Below, one piece after another: positions 2,428-11,818 of a DNA stretch of 64,000 bases. The position numbers were made by a program, and so were the translations under genes. The notes below the pieces were generated by a model. It did no database searches, had not been told where the DNA came from, and saw nothing but the letters and a program-made list of their open reading frames with translations. Source of the DNA: Pseudofrankia sp. DC12 (GTDB lineage Bacteria; Actinomycetota; Actinomycetes; Frankiales; Frankiaceae); NCBI RefSeq assembly GCF_000966285.1, contig NZ_KQ031391.1, forward strand, positions 3,569,208-3,633,207, written 5' to 3'. How positions within the stretch are numbered: position 1 is the first letter of the stretch; each line of letters opens with the position of its first letter.

Positions 2428-2501
2428 GGGCAGGTAGCTCAGTCGGTACGAGCGTCCGCCTGAAAAGCGGAAGGTCGGCGGTTCGACCCCGCCCCTGCCC
2501 A
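2428..2501 (+). tRNA. tRNA-Phe (anticodon GAA), attachment site
   Basis: Acceptor gggcagg (2428-2434) pairs with cctgccc (2494-2500). The anticodon stem tccgc/gcgga holds the loop ctgaaaa with anticodon GAA at 2462-2464. The T stem ggcgg/ccgcc has loop ttcgacc. The gene lies 52 bases after tRNA-Asp. Its 3' half is repeated 7.2 kb away at 9622-9665, so this tRNA is the integration target of the downstream element and remains complete after insertion. Confidence 0.96.
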
Positions 2502-2503
2502 CC
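2460..2503. repeat. Left attachment core (attL-like) in tRNA-Phe
   Basis: This 44-base block runs from the anticodon loop to just past the acceptor stem. It recurs at 9622-9665 with one mismatch (A at 2466, G at 9628), and the last 37 bases are identical. A direct repeat of a tRNA 3' end flanking integrase genes is the standard mark of site-specific integration. Confidence 0.88.
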
Positions 2504-3039
2504 CATTTGACCTGCGGAAATACCCGAAATTTCGATCAACGCCTGATCGATATATGGCAACGCGTGTGGCAACGGGACCGTCCAATCCCAGCGGCCGACC
2601 GGCTCGGACCCTGGCTGACCTGCGAAGACAGCGAGGCTGACCGTCCGCTTTTCGGGTGGAAGGTCACGAAGATCCTTTTCTAGGGGTGGCCGGCCGACGG
2701 TGTTCCGGCACTGTTTGTGCTGGTAGGAGGCCCCAACGACCGTCCGGGCGCGGGGGCATTCGTTCGCTGACGTCCATGGACGTTGCCACACAACATGGCC
2801 CTGTATGGCAGAGGAGCTCGCCCGGTGCCCTGCTGGCGAGCGACCCACCTGCGACGATGAAGAGGATCGAGGAGAGCGCACGTCCGCTTATTGGGCGGAC
2901 GGTCCCGGATCGCGGAGGCGATCAAAAACCGATCAGCGCAGCGCGCAGGTGATGACCGTCCGGGCGACGCCCAGCACGAGGGCGGCTACAGCACCTCACG
3001 AGCCTTCTTCCGCGAACCCGTCGGAACTGCGAGCTGTGG
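2504..3039. other. Element left end, arm sites and no clear gene
   Basis: After the tRNA-Phe core come paired TGGCAACG repeats (2555-2574), then copies of the motif GACCGTCCGC (for example 2639-2648) and its inverse CGGACGGTC (2896-2904). Open frames here show no family resemblance. In the frame of the next gene the bases before 3040 read RRNCELW without a start codon, so that gene could begin earlier or be 5'-truncated. Confidence 0.4.
2555..2574 (+). promoter_or_regulatory. Paired arm-type repeats TGGCAACG, left
   Basis: TGGCAACG occurs at 2555-2562 and 2567-2574, a 12-base period, starting 52 bases after the tRNA-Phe core. The same layout (TAGCAACG twice, 12-base period) lies 64 bases after the second core at 9729-9748. 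Direct repeats at a fixed distance from a core site resemble integrase arm-binding sites; the role is inferred. Confidence 0.5.
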
Positions 3040-5040
3040 ATGGACTTCACCGCGATCACCGCCCCGGCCTGGCGGCGCTTCGCCAAGGAGTACCTGCTCG
3101 CCCGGCTGGCACCCACCCTCGACGAGGTGGCCGTGCTCGCGCACGCCTACCGGACACCGCTGGCGCTGACCAGCTGCCACCAGCGGCTGCGCGCGCTGAC
3201 CGGCTGGCTGAACTGGCTGACCAGCCACGGCGTGTCCAGCCTGGATCAGGTCAGCCAGCAGCACTGCGACCGGTATCTGAACCAGCGGCGGGCCCGGCAC
3301 GATCCCGACGGGAACCCGGTCGGCCCGCTCGGGGACTACAGCGTCCGCCTGATCGCCGCGGTCATCATCGAGCTCGCCTACTACACCGAGCTGTTCACCG
3401 CCGACCGCTACCCGCCCGGCTTCCTGCCCTGGTCGGGACGATCAGCCTGGGCGGTAACAGGGGCCAACCCGCCCGGGTCCAACACCACCCCGGTGGTGCG
3501 CCAGCAGGTGCTGGCGCCGATGCTCGCCGCCACGCTCTACCTCGTCGGCACGCTCGCCGAGCCCATCACCCTGCTGCGCCGCGGGCTGGCCGCCCACCAG
3601 GACCAGGTACGGGCGCTACCCGGCTCGCACGCCACACCCGCCGCCCTGCGGGTCGTCCTGCGCCGCCACGAGTCCACCGGCATTCCGTTGGAGCAGGTCG
3701 CCGACCACATCGTGCACGGTCGGCTGGCCCGGGGCTGGGCCGACGACGACCCGCTGCTGGCGGTCAACCTGCACGCCCTGGCCCGCCGCACCGGCCGCGC
3801 CAAGATCAGCAACACGACCGTGCAGGCGCTGCGGCCGGCGATCGAACACACCCTCCGCCTGGTCGGCGTCGAACGGCCCTGGGGCCGCGACGCCCCGCAC
3901 GTCGAGCGGGCCGACGGCGCGGGCCCCATCCGGTGGACACTGCCGATCGACGAAGCCGACGTGCGCTACCTGGCCGACCACCTGTTCACCGCCTGCCTGC
4001 TGGTGACCGCCACCGTCACCGGGATGCGCGAGTGCGAGCTGATGGAACTGCGCACCGGCTGCCGCCGCCCACCCGCCGAGGACACCCTCGACCGGCACCG
4101 GCTGACCGGCACCCTCGTCAAAGGCCAGCCCCTCGGCGGCACCCGCGACGAATGGGTCGTCATCGGCGAGGTCGACCACGCCATCGCCGTCGCCGAACGG
4201 CTCCACAGAACGGAGCGCCGCGACGGTGACCTGCTGTTCGGCCGGTTTGCCTTCGCGTCCCGCTACCAGCACCTACGCTCCTGGGTGAACGGGCCGGCCG
4301 GCCGGCGGCTCGGCCTGGACCCCATCCCCGACGACCCGGTCAACCCGCGGATGCTGCGCCGCACCCTCGCCCAAGAACTCGCCTACCGGCCCGGCGGCCT
4401 GCTCGCCACGAAAATCCATTTGAAGCATGTGTCGGTGGCGACGACCGAGGGCTACGCCGCCCGGCCCGGCGGCGCCCAAGCGAAACTGCTCGCCGAGATC
4501 AGCGAACACGAAACCGAACGCAACCAGCAGCTGATCCTCGCCGAATACCGCAACCACCAGCAGCAGATCATGCCCGCTGGGCCTGGCGCCCGGGACCTGA
4601 CCGCCTTGTTCGCGCACATCGACGCCGAGCTCTCCGCCCACGCCCCCATCGCGCCCGGGGTCCTCGACAGCGACAAACATGTGATCAACCTGCTGTCCAA
4701 ACGGGCCGGGACGCTGCACCTCGGCGCCGCGAACTACTGCTGGTTCATCGACCCGGCCCGCGCGCTCTGCCTGACACTCGCCGGCACCCCGACCGCGGAC
4801 AAGCCCCTGGCCGGGATGTGCGACTCCGCCCGCTGCCCGCAGGCCACCCACCACCCCTGCCACCGCGACGTCTGGGCCGACACGGTCACCCAGGCCACCG
4901 CCTTCCTTGGCAACCTCGGCCGCACCCACACCGCCGAACGCGCCCGGCTACGCGGTGAACTCGCCCGCGCCCAACGTGTCCTGGACGCGATCGACACCGC
5001 GTCTGGATCATCCACGGCTTCCGACGCCGAAAGCGAGTAG
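3040..5040 (+). CDS. TnpB-like tyrosine recombinase (large site-specific integrase)
   Basis: A 666-residue DNA breaking-rejoining enzyme of the large integrase class that works with partner recombinases in Tn554-like elements. An N-terminal SAM-like region (about 1-110; ARLAPTLDEVAVLA, LTGWLNWLTSHG) precedes a long insert and the catalytic domain. Catalytic candidates are Arg330 in TGMREC, the RMLRRTLA box near 435, His463 in LKHVSV and the nucleophile Tyr472 in TTEGYAA. The tail has a cysteine/histidine cluster (MCDSARCPQATHHPCH, about 587-603) that may bind zinc, then a helical end. It is followed four bases later by a DUF6262-like gene, the usual TnpB-TnpC pair. The start at 3040 is uncertain because in-frame coding resemblance seems to continue a little upstream. 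Confidence 0.85.
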   Translation: MDFTAITAPAWRRFAKEYLLARLAPTLDEVAVLAHAYRTPLALTSCHQRLRALTGWLNWLTSHGVSSLDQVSQQHCDRYLNQRRARHDPDGNPVGPLGDYSVRLIAAVIIELAYYTELFTADRYPPGFLPWSGRSAWAVTGANPPGSNTTPVVRQQVLAPMLAATLYLVGTLAEPITLLRRGLAAHQDQVRALPGSHATPAALRVVLRRHESTGIPLEQVADHIVHGRLARGWADDDPLLAVNLHALARRTGRAKISNTTVQALRPAIEHTLRLVGVERPWGRDAPHVERADGAGPIRWTLPIDEADVRYLADHLFTACLLVTATVTGMRECELMELRTGCRRPPAEDTLDRHRLTGTLVKGQPLGGTRDEWVVIGEVDHAIAVAERLHRTERRDGDLLFGRFAFASRYQHLRSWVNGPAGRRLGLDPIPDDPVNPRMLRRTLAQELAYRPGGLLATKIHLKHVSVATTEGYAARPGGAQAKLLAEISEHETERNQQLILAEYRNHQQQIMPAGPGARDLTALFAHIDAELSAHAPIAPGVLDSDKHVINLLSKRAGTLHLGAANYCWFIDPARALCLTLAGTPTADKPLAGMCDSARCPQATHHPCHRDVWADTVTQATAFLGNLGRTHTAERARLRGELARAQRVLDAIDTASGSSTASDAESE

Positions 5041-5044
5041 CCCC

Positions 5045-5506
5045 ATGCGCGTCAGCGACGCCCAGCGCCGCGACACCGAAGACCGCATCCGCGCCACCGC
5101 CCGCGCACTGCTACGCGGCGAACTACCACCCGGCGGCAAGTGCGACACCACCACCCTGGCCCGCCTCGCCGGGATCTCCCGGGCCACCCTCTACCGCAGC
5201 TACCCGCACCTCAAGGCCGAGTTCGAAAAGCAGTTCGCCGACCTTCACGCCACCGGCGGCACCGTCGTCGACTCCCGAGACGCCCAGATCACCCGCCTCA
5301 AACGGGACAACGCCGACCTGCACCGCCGGCTCGCCGAACGCGACAGCCAACTCGCCGAGCACGAAGCGTTCAGAACCCTCGCGATCTCCCGGCTCGCCGC
5401 CCAACACGACGAGATCCACCGCCTCCGCACCGCCGCGGCGGCCCCCGCCGGCACACTGCGCGCCCTACCTACCCGACGATCCACCGGCCAGATCGGACCA
5501 TGCTGA
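5045..5506 (+). CDS. TnpC/DUF6262-like recombinase accessory protein
   Basis: This 153-residue protein has a predicted helix-turn-helix (TTTLARLAGISRATLYRSYP, about 37-56) followed by a long coiled coil (about 78-135; RLKRDNADLHRRLAERDSQL). That is the architecture of the small third protein of Tn554-type modules. There it is thought to assist or orient recombination rather than cut DNA; that role is known only from the family. The gene starts four bases after the stop of the large recombinase and must be co-transcribed with it. No disruption is seen. Confidence 0.8.
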   Translation: MRVSDAQRRDTEDRIRATARALLRGELPPGGKCDTTTLARLAGISRATLYRSYPHLKAEFEKQFADLHATGGTVVDSRDAQITRLKRDNADLHRRLAERDSQLAEHEAFRTLAISRLAAQHDEIHRLRTAAAAPAGTLRALPTRRSTGQIGPC

Positions 5507-5573
5507 CCGCGCCAGACCGGGGACAGCCACGAGCCATGACCTGCCTCACACCCAAGCGCTCCGACACGGCTCG

Positions 5574-5698
5574 AAACGAGACACGACCGCTCGCCGCCGA
5601 ATTAAACGAGACACGCAGACTGCGGACAAAAAGCCGATTCTCTCTGCTTTGTGACAGCGTCTCGTTTTCTCCTTTCGGTGGGGCTGGCTGTCTCGTTT
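5574..5698. repeat. Symmetric AAACGAGACA site array between recombinase operons
   Basis: AAACGAGACA occurs at 5574-5583 and 5604-5613. The reverse complement occurs as CGTCTCGTTT (one mismatch) at 5658-5667 and TGTCTCGTTT at 5689-5698. The direct pair is spaced by 30 bases and the inverted pair by 31, so the layout is mirror-like around about 5635. The array fills the 235-base gap between the DUF6262-like gene and the TnpA-like gene. It could be recombinase binding sites at an element end or junction, or an operator. Both are inferences. Confidence 0.6.
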
Positions 5699-5741
5699 GC
5701 CGGTTGCGGGGTGGTGTGCGGCGTTCGTAGGGTCGCGCCTC

Positions 5742-7229
5742 GTGTATCTGACCTTCTTCTCCGGTGCGGGCTGGCAGGGCTGGGATGTGGCGGCGGCGCC
5801 GGCGATCCCTGAGCGGATGCCGGTGCTGGTCGATGACGATCTGCGGTTCGACGGCGACGGTGGTGTGCCGCGGCCGGCGGTCGTGGTGAACCGGTGGCTG
5901 TGGGAGCTGCCCACGAGGGGTGCGCCGGCGAGCGCGACGTGGGCGGCCTACGCGCGGGTGCTGCGGGACTGGATCGAGTTCCTCACGGGCCTCGGGGTCG
6001 GTCTGTTCGACGGCCGGGAGGCGTTGAAGCGGGCGCTGGGGGCGTATGCGGCGCACCGGGCGGACGGGCCGGTGGCGGCGCGGTTCGCGGCGACGACCTG
6101 GAACCGGCACGTGAGCGTGTTGTCGTGCTTCTACCAGTGGGCGGTGGCCGAGGGGTATGCGGTGGCGGTGCCGTTCAGCTATGCCCAGGGCCGCGCCGGT
6201 TTCGCCGGTCCGGCCGGGCCGGTGCGGGTGAATCTGGCCCGGCGGCGGACACCGAAGGCGCACGTGACCATCAAGTATCTGGAGGCCGAGTTCGCGGAGA
6301 TGTTCGTGCGCGCGCTGGCGGGGCTGCGGCCCGATGGCGTGGCGGACGAGGGCTATCGGGGCCGGGAGTTGGAACGCAACGCCGCGATGGCCCGGTTGGC
6401 GTTGGCGAGCGGGCTGCGCCGGGCGGAGTTCACCTACCTGCTGGTCTACGAGGTCCCGGCGCTGCCCCGAGCGGCGAGGGACCTGCCGGTGCCGCTGGCG
6501 GTGCCGGCGGGAGTGGCCAAGGGCCGCAAACCCCGGACCACCTGGGTTGATCACGCCGCGTTGGAGGCGGTGCACCGCTATGTGGGGCTGGACCGGGCGG
6601 CGAGCACGGCCGGGTCGTCGTGGCGTCCCCCGCCCCGGTGGGGAACGCCACTGCACGTCAGCGACCCCGACCCGATCGGCGGGCGGGTCAACGGGGTCCG
6701 GGTGCGCTGGGCGAGCCTGCGTCCCGCGGACCGGCGGCGCCTCGTCGACCCGGACGGTGGGTCGTGCCTGCTGGCGCTGCGCGGTGACGGCGGGCCGTTC
6801 ACCGCGTGGGACAGCGTGTTCACCCGCGCCTCAGAGCGCATCCGCGAGGCTTTCGAGCCCCGCTTCCCGCATGTCCACCCGCACCGGCTGCGGCACTCGT
6901 TCGCCCTCGCCACGTTGGAGAAGCTGGTCGGCGGCTACTACCGGCAGGCCGCGGCGCTCACGGCGGCGACCGGCGGCGAGGGCGGCCCGGACGTGGCGTT
7001 GGCGTTGTATCTGTCCAAGGCCGACCCGCTGATGGTGCTGCGTGACCTACTCGGCCACTCCTCCGTGATGGTCACCGAAACCTACCTGCGCCGGTTGGAC
7101 ACCACCCGCATCTACCGGGACGCCTACCAGCACGCCGGCGCCGCCCACGGCCTGACGGCCGACCCTGCTGCGCAGCGTGAGGCGGACGCGGAGTTCACCG
7201 GCACCTACGTGGAGGGGGACGAGTTCTGA
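5742..7229 (+). CDS. TnpA-like tyrosine recombinase/integrase
   Basis: This is a complete phage-integrase-fold recombinase of about 495 residues with the full catalytic set: Arg226 (SGLRRAEF), His381-X-X-Arg384 (HPHRLRHSF), His439 (LLGHSSVM) and nucleophile Tyr448 (VTETYLRR). The N-terminal core-binding region (about 45-160) contains WAAYARVLRDWIEFL and FYQWAVAEGY. GTG at 5742 is chosen as start; an in-frame TTG at 5697 would overlap the last AAACGAGACA-type site, so the true start is not settled. The stop codon overlaps the start of the next gene by one base, indicating an operon. It is the best candidate in the element for an active strand-transfer enzyme. Confidence 0.9.
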   Translation: MYLTFFSGAGWQGWDVAAAPAIPERMPVLVDDDLRFDGDGGVPRPAVVVNRWLWELPTRGAPASATWAAYARVLRDWIEFLTGLGVGLFDGREALKRALGAYAAHRADGPVAARFAATTWNRHVSVLSCFYQWAVAEGYAVAVPFSYAQGRAGFAGPAGPVRVNLARRRTPKAHVTIKYLEAEFAEMFVRALAGLRPDGVADEGYRGRELERNAAMARLALASGLRRAEFTYLLVYEVPALPRAARDLPVPLAVPAGVAKGRKPRTTWVDHAALEAVHRYVGLDRAASTAGSSWRPPPRWGTPLHVSDPDPIGGRVNGVRVRWASLRPADRRRLVDPDGGSCLLALRGDGGPFTAWDSVFTRASERIREAFEPRFPHVHPHRLRHSFALATLEKLVGGYYRQAAALTAATGGEGGPDVALALYLSKADPLMVLRDLLGHSSVMVTETYLRRLDTTRIYRDAYQHAGAAHGLTADPAAQREADAEFTGTYVEGDEF

Positions 7230-8575
7230 TGCCCGCCCAGCTGCGAGAGGACGGGCTCGGGATCGCCTGCGTGTTCAGCGACGGCCGCCGCCGAGCGTTC
7301 ACGGTCGCGGGCGTGGCGCCAGCGCCGCTGGCCGCTGATCTGCTGGTCGGGCTGGCCGGGCTGGTCCACCCGCACGGCAGCGTCGACGCGCCGGCCACCG
7401 TCGGCTGCTACCTGACCGGCCTGAAGGACCTGGCCGCCTTCGCCCACGGCCGTGGGCTGGCTGGTGGGGCGGCGACGCTGACCCGCGCCGTGCTCGCCGA
7501 GTACTGGCTGCAAGCGGGCTGGCTGGCGGAGCTGACGACCCGGCGGATGCTGACCAGCTACGACACGACGACCGGTGCCTTGCCGCCGCCAGTGCGGGAG
7601 CTGGCCGGCGGGCGGCTGTTCAACTCCGCGCCGGCGTCGACGCCGCTGGTCCCCTACCCGGTGCAGGAGTGGGAACGGCTGCACAAAGCCTGCCGGACGG
7701 CGGTCGATGAGGCGTTCGCCAGCCACCGGGTCATGCAGGCGGCGGCACGGCGTGGCGGCGACCCGCGCGAGCTCGGCTTCAGCCAGGACAATGTTGCCTG
7801 GCTGCTGGCCGAACACGGTCCGGCCACCGCCACCGACGTCGCCGCGTATCTGGGCCGGACCAACCGGTGGATCGAGCTACGCGGCGGGGTCCGCCCCGTC
7901 TGCCAGGCTCTCTACCCCGACGTCCACACGGTGATCGCCTACCGGCTGCTGCTGGGCATCTACACCGGGATCGTGCCCGACGGCATCGCCGACCTCGGCG
8001 TGAGCGACCTCGACTGGGCCGGGGACGCCACCGTGCTGCTCGCCTACGTCAAGGGCCGGCGGGCAGCCGAATCGGTCACCCTGCCCGCCAAGGCGGTCCG
8101 GCTGCTCGAGCAGTGGCTGGCCCACAGCGCGCCCGCCCGGGCCTTCGCTCCCGCCGGACTACGCGGCCATCTGTGGGCGCACTTCCACTACTACGCGGCC
8201 CGCACGGGCAGCCGGCAGCAGTGGTGGACGACGCAGGTTCCCGCGCCGACCCAGCGGGCGTGGGCGCAGCGCCGGGGCCTGACGGTCGACCGGCGCCGCA
8301 TCCGCACGACCTACCTGTCGTTGCGGGACCGGCGGTCCTGGCACGGCAGCTCCCGGACGCTGATCGACCCGAACCACAGCCCGGCCGTGGAAGGCGACAG
8401 TTACCTCACCGCCACCACCCCCGCCCAGCGTGAGGCGGTCGAGGCGGTCATCGCCGACGCGCAGCACGACATGCTGCGCCGCGCCCACCCGCCGGTCGTG
8501 CTCGGCGACGCCGACACGGCCGCCGCGGTGGCTGGCTTCCCGCGGCTGGCCGCCGACCTCGGTGGTTGCCCGCTG
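7229..8575 (+). pseudogene. Third recombinase-module protein, 3' truncated
   Basis: Coding resemblance runs for about 449 residues from the ATG at 7229, then stops. After LAADLG the frame continues into sequence that is antisense to a TIR gene remnant, reaching a stop at 8896. The region reads as a degenerate tyrosine recombinase: an N-terminal core-binding part (VGCYLTGLKDLAAFAHGRG), a helical middle, RRRIRTTYLSLR near 355 and NHSPAVEGDSYL near 381, which resembles a His...Tyr box II. It overlaps the TnpA-like stop by one base. Loss of the C terminus by an insertion or rearrangement at about 8575 probably makes the module defective. Confidence 0.7.
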
Positions 8576-8579
8576 TGTC

Positions 8580-9112
8580 CGGTTCCTGTGAGCCGCGGAG
8601 CGGGTGCTGGCCTGGGTGCGCGAGGAAAGGCGGGCTTGCTGATAGGTGGGGCGCTGCGGGGGCGCGCAGGGAATGCGGGTGCCGAGGTGGGTTTGGCTCG
8701 GCCGTTCAGGGAGTTACGCACTTGGTCGAGCAGGTCACGCTGCGCGTCATCGGCGGCTAGGCCGAATAGGTCGATGGACACCACTCCGTGGAGCAGTCCG
8801 GGCCGGTCGCAGTCCTCGACACGGATCGGCAGGAGTTTGCGGCCGAAGCCTGTGGGATCAGCGGCTTGGGCTGCTTGCCACTCCTGTTGGCCGTAGACGG
8901 AATCGAGGTAGGCGGCAGACAGGATCGCGATCGTCCGAGTCGCTCGCTGCACCCCATCGTTCATGCGAAACTGCCAGTTCGAGCCGGCGACGAAGTCCCA
9001 AGCCTGGATCAAGACGCTGTAGCGAGAGTCCTCCAACTGCCAAGCCACCCACTCAGCCCACGCGCGGTCTGTGTGGGTGTAGGAGACAAAGAAGTCTCAC
9101 CCGTCGGCGCGC
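8580..9112 (-). pseudogene. TIR-domain protein fragment 1
   Basis: The reverse strand encodes a good TIR domain: DFFVSYTHTDRAWAEW (betaA and following helix, from about 9112), then WQLEDSRYSVLIQAWDF, SAAYLDSVYGQQEW, LLPIRVEDCDRPGLL and VSIDLFG, with a proline/alanine-rich linker after about 8700. A TGA stands directly before DFFVSY in the same frame and no start codon leads into it, so the 5' end is broken. The linker then runs into the truncated recombinase at about 8580. In actinobacteria such TIR domains head multidomain NB-ARC/TPR or effector proteins; none of the later domains survives. Confidence 0.8.
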
Positions 9113-9621: not shown

Positions 9622-9665
9622 CTGAAAGGCGGAAGGTCGGCGGTTCGACCCCGCCCCTGCCCACC
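9622..9665. repeat. Right attachment core (attR-like), partial tRNA-Phe copy
   Basis: This is the 44-base copy of the tRNA-Phe 3' half (see 2460-2503), without the 5' half needed for a functional tRNA: no acceptor 5' strand or D arm precedes it. It marks the right border of element 1. Confidence 0.88.
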
Positions 9666-9728
9666 ACCTCTGACCAGCGGTTTTACACCGCAACAGAGAT
9701 CAAATCGGCCGTTTTGAAGATCGTTATG

Positions 9729-9748
9729 TAGCAACGGGTGTAGCAACG
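9729..9748 (+). promoter_or_regulatory. Paired arm-type repeats TAGCAACG, right
   Basis: TAGCAACG occurs at 9729-9736 and 9741-9748, 64 bases beyond the second core. Period and orientation match the TGGCAACG pair beyond the first core. Presence of this pair outside element 1 suggests that a second element begins at this core. Confidence 0.5.
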
Positions 9749-10242
9749 CCGACCGAGACCTGGCGGCGGACGGTCACCCGCACACCAGCGCTGACCTGCA
9801 CAGACACCTCCGGCAGACCGTCCGCTTCGGGACAAAACAGTCGAGCCGGATCTCGCCGGCCGCGGTCGTCGCACCGCCCGTGCCCGAGGTAGCGCAAACA
9901 CCCTGGTCAAGCCTCTGCCGCAGGACGCCGATCCTGCCCCGTCTCCAGGCGAAGCGACCGATCAGACCTCTGGACCTGCGGTTCCGCATTGACGGCCCAG
10001 CGCGCCACACGCCTCGTCGGCGATCGCAGGCTGTTGCTACACCGGTAGCTACAGAACAGACGCCGACATCAGCGGAACGCGCCGGCGCAGCTGTCTGACC
10101 TGCCTCGATCCGCGGAGCGAACCAGCGGACCGTCCGTTTCGGCAGCGGACGATCGGGGACACCCGTCCACCTCGGGACGCCACACCGCAAAGGTCAGAGA
10201 CGGACTACACCCGGCACACACCACCAAGATGCACAACAGGCA
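9749..10242. other. Gene-free stretch after second att core
   Basis: No coding region is recognised. Motifs shared with the left end of element 1 recur: GACCGTCCGC at about 9818 and GACCGTCCG at about 10129. TGTTGCTA (10032-10039) and GGTAGCTA (10044-10051) form an inverted, weaker arm-type pair with the same 12-base period. The stretch looks like the attachment end of a related element. Confidence 0.4.
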
Positions 10243-10480
10243 CTAAGCGGCTGCCACGGATCTGGTCGAGCAGGTGACGTGGGCGTCGTCGACAGCCCGG
10301 TCGAACAGGTCGATGGAGACAACAGCGCCGAGGAGGCCTGGGCGGGAACAGTCCTCGATGCGAACGGGAAGCAGCTTGCGGGCGAAGCCGTGCGGGTCGG
10401 CTGGTTGGGCGGCTAGCCATTCGACCTGGCCGTAGACCGAGTCCAGGTACGCGCCGGACAGGACCAGGGCTGCGGCAAGA
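10243..10480 (-). pseudogene. TIR-domain protein fragment 3
   Basis: The reverse strand encodes SGAYLDSVYGQVEWLAAQ, KLLPVRIEDCSRPGLL and VVSIDLFDRAVDDA, closely similar to the middle of TIR fragment 1. Both the betaA strand and the domain C terminus are missing, and the frame runs into unrelated residues (CSTRSVAAA) before its stop. It is a separate, diverged copy, so TIR genes have been duplicated and lost here. Confidence 0.75.
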
Positions 10481-10631
10481 TAACAGTCCGGATTGATCAA
10501 ACTACGCCTCCAGTCTGGTCGGGCCTGGAGAAGTACTTTGAGTTGATCCGGAAACCCAGTAACCACAGGCGGTTCAATCGCTGCCGGCCTATCCGTGCCG
10601 ACCGAATCCGACTACCTTGAGTTGCCACACG

Positions 10632-11094: not shown

Positions 11095-11361
11095 GTGAGT
11101 ACTCCTGAGATCACGCAGCGGGACCTGCGGTCGAAGTCGCGGGAAATCATGGACGCCGTCGAGCATGGGCAGTCGTTCACGGTCACTCGGGATGGTCACC
11201 GGATCGGACAGCTCGTCCCGATCCGACGTCGGCGCCGGTTCGTCTCGCGGCAGGAGTTCGCCGCGATGTCGCGCAACGTGCCTGACGCCGGTCTGGAGGC
11301 GTTCCGCGCCGACCAGGACGCGGCAGCCGACCACGAGGCCACGAGCGCCTATGACCAGTGA
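11095..11361 (+). CDS. Phd/YefM-type antitoxin
   Basis: The 88-residue antitoxin has the Phd/YefM N-terminal DNA-binding fold (ITQRDLRSKSREIMDAVEHG, then FTVTRDGHRIGQLVPI) and an acidic, flexible C-terminal tail (about 55-88) that should wrap the toxin. It starts at GTG. Its last codons overlap the toxin gene by 11 bases, so translation is coupled. It should neutralise the PIN toxin and repress the operon through the palindrome at 11069-11085. Confidence 0.88.
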   Translation: MSTPEITQRDLRSKSREIMDAVEHGQSFTVTRDGHRIGQLVPIRRRRRFVSRQEFAAMSRNVPDAGLEAFRADQDAAADHEATSAYDQ

Positions 11362-11818
11362 GCCCGTCCGGCAGGGCCTGCTGGACACCAACATCCTGAT
11401 CCTGCGCCGCTGGGTCGATGTCGCCGAGCTTCCGGACGAGATGGCGATCAGCGTGGTGACGCTGGCGGAGCTGTCCGCCGGGCCGCACCAGGTCCGGCGC
11501 AACGACGAGCAGGACCTGTACGACGAGCACGAGGAACGGGCCCGGCGGATGGAGATACTCCAACGCGCAGAGAACGAGTTCGACCCGATCCCGTTCGACA
11601 CCGAGGCCGCGCGAGTCTACGGCCGACTGACCGCAGCCGTCGTCGCCGCAGGTCGCAAACCGCGCCGCCGCACCGCGGACCTCATGATTGCCGCTACTGC
11701 GGTCGCCGAGGACCTCCCGCTGTTCACCACCAATCCCGGCGACTACACCGGCTTGGAAAAGCTCCTACGCACGGTTCCAGTCACGAGGCCGCCCTTGCCC
11801 CACGAGAAGAAGCCCTGA
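11351..11818 (+). CDS. PIN-domain toxin (VapC-like ribonuclease)
   Basis: This 155-residue PIN nuclease is predicted to cut RNA, commonly tRNA in this family. Acidic active-site residues are Asp12 (GLLDTNILIL), Glu40 (VVTLAELSAG) and Asp110 (RTADLMIAATA), with a terminal aspartate/asparagine region at TTNPGDY (about 126-132). The ATG at 11351 lies inside the antitoxin gene. Pairing with a Phd-type antitoxin is common in actinobacteria. The pair sits in the presumed second mobile element and could stabilise it. Confidence 0.9.
   Translation: MTSEPVRQGLLDTNILILRRWVDVAELPDEMAISVVTLAELSAGPHQVRRNDEQDLYDEHEERARRMEILQRAENEFDPIPFDTEAARVYGRLTAAVVAAGRKPRRRTADLMIAATAVAEDLPLFTTNPGDYTGLEKLLRTVPVTRPPLPHEKKP

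Follow-up and report, generated by a model that had tools for sequence, protein, structure and literature searches.

The four-gene module at positions 3038-8563 of the DNA analysed here, from Pseudofrankia sp. DC12, has the gene order C-D-A-B, which is exceptional among related loci. Our results suggest, with a probability that we put at about 55%, that this module is the dead relic of a small, cargo-less element of approximately 6.1 kb and order A-B-C-D, similar to the strand-biased circularizing elements (SEs), and that it is circularly permuted, coming from a captured circle. The analysed DNA, called the window, is the stretch of 64,000 nucleotides between 3,569,208 and 3,633,207 of contig NZ_KQ031391.1 (GCF_000966285.1), and the genome is one complete 6.88-Mb contig. 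The letters A, B, C and D follow the gene order in the relatives, and a prime marks a cut gene; thus the window reads C'-D-A-B', with C cut at its start and B at its end. What can be read directly from the DNA is the usual order, the ends of the relatives, a joint of right end, 6 bp and left end in the window, the truncation of both outer genes, and the almost complementary positions of the two cuts. The odd gene order looks like a fossil, left by a circle or by two copies in tandem, and not like a module of a new kind.

The gene order of the window is exceptional

An earlier note on this DNA had described a four-part tyrosine recombinase module in an abnormal order. The four parts are present as four open reading frames (ORFs) that fill 3040-8563 on the same (+) strand: A and C are recombinases by match, B resembles one by the model of a relative's protein, and D carries a helix-turn-helix (HTH) and a coiled coil. 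To tabulate the order, genome contigs were scanned with a C profile, which yielded 153 relatives; the best 80 were kept and, together with five plasmid regions, gave 85 loci for a gene-order census by tblastn. The order was A-B-C-D in 79 loci, B-C-D in five and B-C in one, and C-D-A-B was found in none of the 85. The order of the window is therefore exceptional. Three of the six incomplete loci (L025, L044, L047, L065, L076 and L078) begin at a contig end, namely L025, L065 and L078. The census is not entirely clean, as two loci have a stray piece in a place like that of a permuted copy: L035 carries a C piece (30%) ahead of A, which we read as belonging to a distant host module, and an A piece of 53 residues follows the D of L054. 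On plasmids, A was present in 30 records and C in 112, of which the best 60 were listed; in all 27 records common to the two lists, which were compared by hand, the two genes share a strand and A is the upstream one. The earlier note had said that its view would fall if this order proved to be the conserved norm, and neither the 85 loci nor the 27 plasmid records have it as the norm.

The relative that will matter most below, L022, is from a bog metagenome bin and has the normal A-B-C-D order. Closer to the host, A was not found at E 1e-40 in seven other genomes of the same genus, and C was found there as one fragment, in G111. The C profile also picked 38 pattern stretches in viral contigs, with no relative among them. 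Remnants of the same kind of element occur in the same family or genus: A and the start of B at L130 (G088), the end of C with D at L125 (G111), and fragments of A at L131 (G162). Elsewhere, single genes are interrupted, B being split by 2.4 kb of other DNA at L081 (2762-5140) and A by 3.5 kb at L096 (1471-5014).

The ends of the element are joined in the window

The earlier note had proposed a search for element ends, and these were found in the relatives. The left end, TTGTCyCyGCTTAGT, precedes A by about 75-85 bp in this subgroup, and the right end, CTGCGGACACAA, lies about 115-175 bp after D. Both were recognised in 10 loci, among which are five mycobacterial copies that are nearly identical and three copies from R. 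koreensis (L057-L059); the ends of the relatives match, and 6 bp of flank were read on each side. In the four loci with both ends measured (L038, L051, L058 and L074) the element has 6,085-6,103 bp and no cargo. Note that the cargo-less count is that of these four loci.

In the window, the gap between D and A consists of a right end (to 5631), the six bases AGCCGA and a left end (from 5638), an end-to-end joint that the earlier note did not mention. Both window ends align with the corresponding ends of L022. In the published description of the SEs, the inverted repeats C and C' stand 6 bp apart in attS, the joint of the circle (PMC10214605, PMC10782965). The gap has the same geometry, and from this likeness we infer that it derives from a circle. 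The 6-bp spacer by which SE joints are recognised is thus present in the window. A pattern of the joint that was drawn to include the window matched nothing else in 393 genomes, and a joint pattern applied to 129 loci hit the DNA of the window alone, with no abutting pair; both patterns cover the ends of this subgroup only. A circle-joint pattern had 0 matches in viral contigs. In four relatives the terminal inverted repeat has 9-10 of its first 14 positions identical, and 2-9 of 5000 shuffles were as good. Beside the joint of the window, the 9-bp arm AAACGAGAC occurs twice in each orientation.

Three recombinase-type proteins, two of them truncated

A matches Pfam Phage_integrase (E 1.2e-7) and a SAM-like core-binding domain. 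Its catalytic RHRY set is present (GLRRAEF, HPHRLRHSF, LGH..Y), with the key residues invariant in 7/7 aligned A proteins; a PDB sequence search with A gave 0 matches at E 0.01. C matches the PHROG integrases (E 9.9e-5) and has the motifs TGMR, RMLRR (in which Arg replaces His at the HxxR site), LKH and Y. Its best matches are from Actinomycetota, followed at less than 30% identity by alphaproteobacterial plasmids, and NCBIfam gave no useful match. For the B of the window no family match was obtained in Pfam, NCBIfam or PHROG, and in 8/8 aligned B proteins GIVPDG stands where TGxR is expected. An AlphaFold model of the B homologue of L029 (mean pLDDT 75.6, pTM 0.48) was compared with the PDB by Foldseek; XerH (5jk0, E 1.5e-3, prob 1.00) and Cre led the matches, none of which reached E <=0.001. 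In the model, then, the B of this relative resembles the tyrosine recombinase fold. The label DUF6262-like, given to D by the earlier note, turned out to be weak, this family being reached by 2/8 D members (best E 0.0016) and not by the D of the window.

Both outer genes are cut. The earlier note had seen this for the last gene: homology of B stops at 8563, leaving it 127-129 of 575-592 residues short of L016, L017 and L019 and without the CLLCP part. It had missed the same for the first, since DNA homology of C to L022 begins at 3038 and about 60 N-terminal residues are missing relative to intact C proteins (726-742 aa). In the coordinates of L022 the missing stretch is approximately 2953-3520, an estimated ~568 bp of ~6,077 across B/C. 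Thus, the two cuts are complementary: nothing overlaps and only the ~568 bp are absent. A search of the same genome for the missing parts of B and C, with queries from L029 and L017, gave no convincing match (best E 0.056 and 0.55), and C is present once in this complete genome, with no second C. With neither B nor C complete, the relic is probably immobile.

Table 1. Features of the module and of its immediate flanks (positions in the window).
Feature	Position	Strand	Description
C'	3040..5040	+	Large tyrosine recombinase (IntB/TnpB-like), N-terminus truncated; TGMR, RMLRR, LKH and Y motifs kept
D	5045..5506	+	Small HTH and coiled-coil accessory protein, in the GinD/Srap/TnpC position
Right end	5507..5631	+	Ends ...CTGCGGACAAAA; inner limit approximate
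Two AAACGAGAC arm repeats in the right end	5574-5582, 5604-5612	+	
6-bp spacer AGCCGA	5632..5637	+	attS-like joint between right and left end
Left end	5638..5738	+	Begins TTCTCTCTGCTTTGTGACAG...; inner limit approximate
Two inverse-orientation arm repeats in the left end	5659-5667, 5690-5698	-	
A	5697..7229	+	Ordinary-size tyrosine recombinase, IntA-like, intact; R-HxxRH-H-Y set; homology to relatives from near 5739
B'	7229..8563	+	Recombinase-fold protein; first catalytic arginine lacking (GIVPDG), C-terminal part with the zinc-finger-like CLLCP lost
TIR-domain gene	8595..9096	-	Flank, outside the module; cut where a relative runs on into WD40 repeats
tRNA-Phe	2428..2503	+	Flank, intact; left border of the relic-bearing stretch
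44-nt copy of the tRNA-Phe 3' end (98%)	9622..9665	+	Flank; right border

Both halves probably have one origin

The earlier note had left two explanations side by side, partial modules that abut and a circular permutation. Trees of 53-55 sequences pair the window with L022 as its sister for every one of the four genes, with supports of 0.999 (A), 1.0 (B), 1.0 (C) and 0.962 (D). An origin in two unrelated partial modules brought together by chance would be allowed by the gene order alone. It is unlikely, and we give it very little credit, because the junction is a right-end/6-bp/left-end joint of one element type and all four genes have the same sister relative; chance contact was rejected on these grounds. 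Of the two explanations in the earlier note, what survives is a permuted single copy or, less probably, a head-to-tail pair of the same element that lost both outer halves; its idea of a permutation is thus supported in part.

A captured circle or a tandem pair

If the relic was a circle, the recombinases of an intact copy would have made it by joining the right end to the left end with the 6-bp spacer between them. This circle would then have opened near the B/C boundary and may have entered the tRNA-Phe island by end joining, with the loss of about 568 bp. The main rival, which we consider a serious if less likely account and rank below the captured circle, is a tandem pair, A-B-C-D-joint-A-B-C-D, in which a second copy inserted where the first one ended, and in which A-B and the 5' part of C on the left, and the 3' part of B with C-D on the right, were lost by deletion. 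Such a pair would produce the same joint, and the right flank of the relic is itself a truncated gene. Half-elements of this sort exist among the relatives (A with the start of B in G088, the end of C with D in G111), as do same-direction neighbours of different subgroups, though these do not abut: in L028 the D is followed at about 2.4 kb by a second A-B-C, and L018 has a second C-D. However, a tandem pair requires two independent deletions that stop at adjacent positions of the element. When cuts were placed at random in a tandem pair, 8.9% of the trials left pieces that were complementary, did not overlap and lacked no more than is lacking here. No abutting pair was seen among the 129 loci or the 393 genomes either, with patterns that cover the ends of this subgroup only. 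The complementary cuts favour the circle over the tandem pair only mildly.

Several observations weigh against a captured circle. The joint would look the same in a head-to-tail tandem pair, and the argument from complementarity is weak at 0.089. The terminal repeat of the window is poorer than that of the relatives, with 8/14 positions identical and 294/5000 shuffles as good. The arms alone prove little, because a quartet of this kind appears somewhere in 7/50 shuffled windows. By tblastn bits, L022 leads for B, C and D and takes fourth place for A, although its A has the highest identity (70%) of the 25 loci listed. Finally, no empty site, in which the left flank, the end of a tRNA-Phe element, would adjoin the right flank, the cut TIR gene, was found when the tRNA-Phe element from 9666 onward was used as the model, the intervening stretches not being homologous (z 0.2-1.2).

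Two further explanations are most improbable. C-D-A-B could be the normal order of a functional variant, and A and D are indeed intact while C' and B' retain the motifs of their catalytic domains; yet B has lost its C-terminal part and C its N-terminus, and this order as a norm was rejected, with 0/85 loci having it. An assembly artefact, in which an extrachromosomal circle was merged into the chromosome, is equally hard to credit: circles are expected for such elements, but the genome is a single 6.88-Mb contig, and both outer genes are eroded, as they would not be in a mis-joined intact circle.

The flanking tRNA-Phe island

The relic block sits between the tRNA-Phe gene and, 7.16 kb farther downstream, the 44-nt copy of the 3' end of this gene (Table 1). 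The sequence right after the first of these copies (2508-2741) is homologous to that right after the second (9671-9902), and this suggests successive insertions at tRNA-Phe, apparently two. Parts of both flanks are similar to the neighbouring tRNA-Phe element, whose middle is not homologous. The TIR gene of the right flank is cut at about 8595, where a relative goes on into WD40 repeats.

The region holds two broken TIR-domain genes, this one at 8595-9096 (-) and another at 10246-10566 (-), which are 72% alike over 184 nt; genes of this kind, TIR-WD40 in one relative, were matched many times in the genus. Upstream lies a complete-looking group II intron (133-1984), with RNA domains at 133-252 and 1909-1984 and a reverse transcriptase ORF at 614-1921. 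Overlapping ORFs at 11095-11818 resemble, by eye only, an antitoxin of the Phd type and a toxin of the PIN type. A search of the same genome for the GmtY family gave one piece under the cut-off, elsewhere in the genome.

The module is closest to the strand-biased circularizing elements

SEs carry four core genes, IntA-Tfp-IntB-Srap (PMC10782965, as far as its available text goes). In the accessible part of PMC10214605 their hosts are given as Gammaproteobacteria, and the words 'Actinobacteria' and 'Actinomycet' do not occur in that part. The same sources list as SE traits a strand-biased, copy-out-like formation of circles without an empty site, and inverted repeats at the termini that are imperfect and about 19 bp long. 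As a reference we used two four-gene sets of plasmid pSEA1; their positions next to blaGMA-1 and bcp, the neighbours named in the SE papers, led us to take them for SE-6945 and SE-6283.

The gene layout of the relatives is that of the SEs: an ordinary recombinase, a recombinase-fold protein without the full RHRY set, a large recombinase and a small accessory protein. In this order, the sizes are 408-467, 581-773, 720-731 and 135-165 aa in the SEs and 466-503, 574-592, 726-742 and 145-165 aa in four relatives. A 6-bp spacer at the joint is also common to both, and imperfect inverted repeats may be. The C profile matched IntB (prob 94.4, E 9.3e-8) and gave no match with Tfp; C is thus the long recombinase with RHRY that SEs have as IntB. 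B takes the second position as a recombinase-fold protein without RHRY, like Tfp, by virtue of GIVPDG and the model; it has no detectable similarity to Tfp, of which only two sequences were used, and did not match IntB. The match of D with Srap by hhalign was weak (prob 7.5, E 0.0046) and spans 39 columns of the HTH region. A would correspond to IntA by its catalytic RHRY set, size and position. Unlike the SEs, the elements described here are hosted by Actinomycetota, the relatives with both ends read have no cargo, and the copy of the window is permuted and dead. Since the SE core order IntA, Tfp, IntB, Srap is found in the window only as a circular permutation, we call it SE-like and not an SE.

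The other known kinds fit less well. GInts have a four-gene operon encoding three recombinase-type proteins and a small HLH-type protein, form circles and make staggered cuts of 6-7 nt; GinC, their third gene product, lacks the first catalytic arginine, and 2.5-70 kb of cargo follow ginD (PMC5385486, as described in its available part). The operon of three recombinase-type proteins and a small one is shared. However, here the second gene, B, lacks the arginine and the third, C, has it, a comparison made with GInts by description only, and the four measured relatives are 6,085-6,103 bp long without cargo. GInt was rejected as an exact label on both points. Tn554-related elements with one long recombinase are known from actinobacterial plasmids and chromosomes (PMC3414803, available text). 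They have in common with our elements one ordinary and one abnormally long recombinase and, in most, a TnpC-like protein. By description they differ in gene B, which lies between A and C in 79/85 loci: Tn554 is described without a counterpart of B in the accessible part of PMC10214605, and that of PMC3414803 describes no B-like gene. The label Tn554 (TnpA, TnpB and TnpC only) was rejected because of this extra gene. The RIT elements also have several adjacent tyrosine recombinases, in their case three enzymes of 315-410 aa, all with the catalytic tyrosine, and 34-bp inverted repeats (PMC10214605, same part). The sizes of ~500, ~580 and ~740 aa and the presence of a fourth gene led us to reject this label as well.

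The architecture therefore fits SEs better than GInts, RITs or Tn554. What the window holds is a degraded and permuted copy of an element whose kind is known but whose actinobacterial form is new. To call the system under-studied, as the earlier note did, is fair; its architecture has been published, for SEs (PMC10214605, PMC10782965) and for GInts (PMC5385486).

Some relatives may target other recombinase genes

The reading frame that runs into the left end was followed in the 24 loci with a left-end motif and flank. Loci without this motif, the near-identical mycobacterial copies and contigs starting at the left end were left out, so that any share given here comes from an unfair sample. In 15/24 loci (L017, L023, L026, L028, L029, L035, L038, L048, L053, L057, L059, L067, L074, L089 and L095) the upstream frame ends in L, F or Y and then R, followed by H, R or K, resembling the catalytic box II of recombinase genes. 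Two of these, L057 and L059, are near-identical. The H of HxxR is present in 12/15 (not in L035, L038 and L089), and the frame stops inside the element in 14/15 (not in L029), for example TPHQL / RHIVSA, stop; a truncated product of this type is mostly left. The 6-bp core coincides with the Arg-His codons. Six of ten upstream parts match Phage_integrase at E 0.01, four of them above the Pfam cut-off; those of L023, L035, L038 and L048 gave no match with this family. After the right end of L038, L057-L059 and L074 the sequence goes on with H-S/T-x-A and what looks, by eye, like a recombinase C-terminus. The Arg-His, Arg-Arg or Arg-Lys motif is absent in 9/24 loci, and another frame is longer in 4/15 (L017, L026, L029 and L053).

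At L023 (1624-13347) and L035 (1899-14116), pieces of a distant A/B/C module flank the element on both sides, as if it were nested. Judging by these pieces, some elements appear to lie within others of the same kind. The target was not seen at the spacer AGCCGA of the window nor in the flanks of L022 and L031, and so the preference is not demonstrated for the window's own branch. We found no report, in the open literature searched, of such elements inserting into integrase genes.

We would tentatively propose, at somewhat less than even odds, that this cargo-less actinobacterial branch of the SE kind preys on its own class of enzyme. Judging from these flanking sequences, the element would place its 6-bp core at the Arg-His codons of box II (HxLRH) of other tyrosine recombinase genes, so that the recombinase of a competitor would be cut, within its active site, between the HxxR and H/Y parts, and it may lock that competitor in place. 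The window would then hold the end joint of the circular intermediate.

Significance

The value of the relic itself is mainly that of a fossil of an end-to-end joint, and its relatives are more interesting. Through them the SE architecture is extended to Actinomycetota: these elements are small and carry no cargo, and public genomes are enough to read their ends and 6-bp core, so that the unsolved movement of SEs and GInts becomes testable in tractable hosts. If the preference for box II is true, these would be mobile elements that disable their rivals at a conserved pair of active-site codons.

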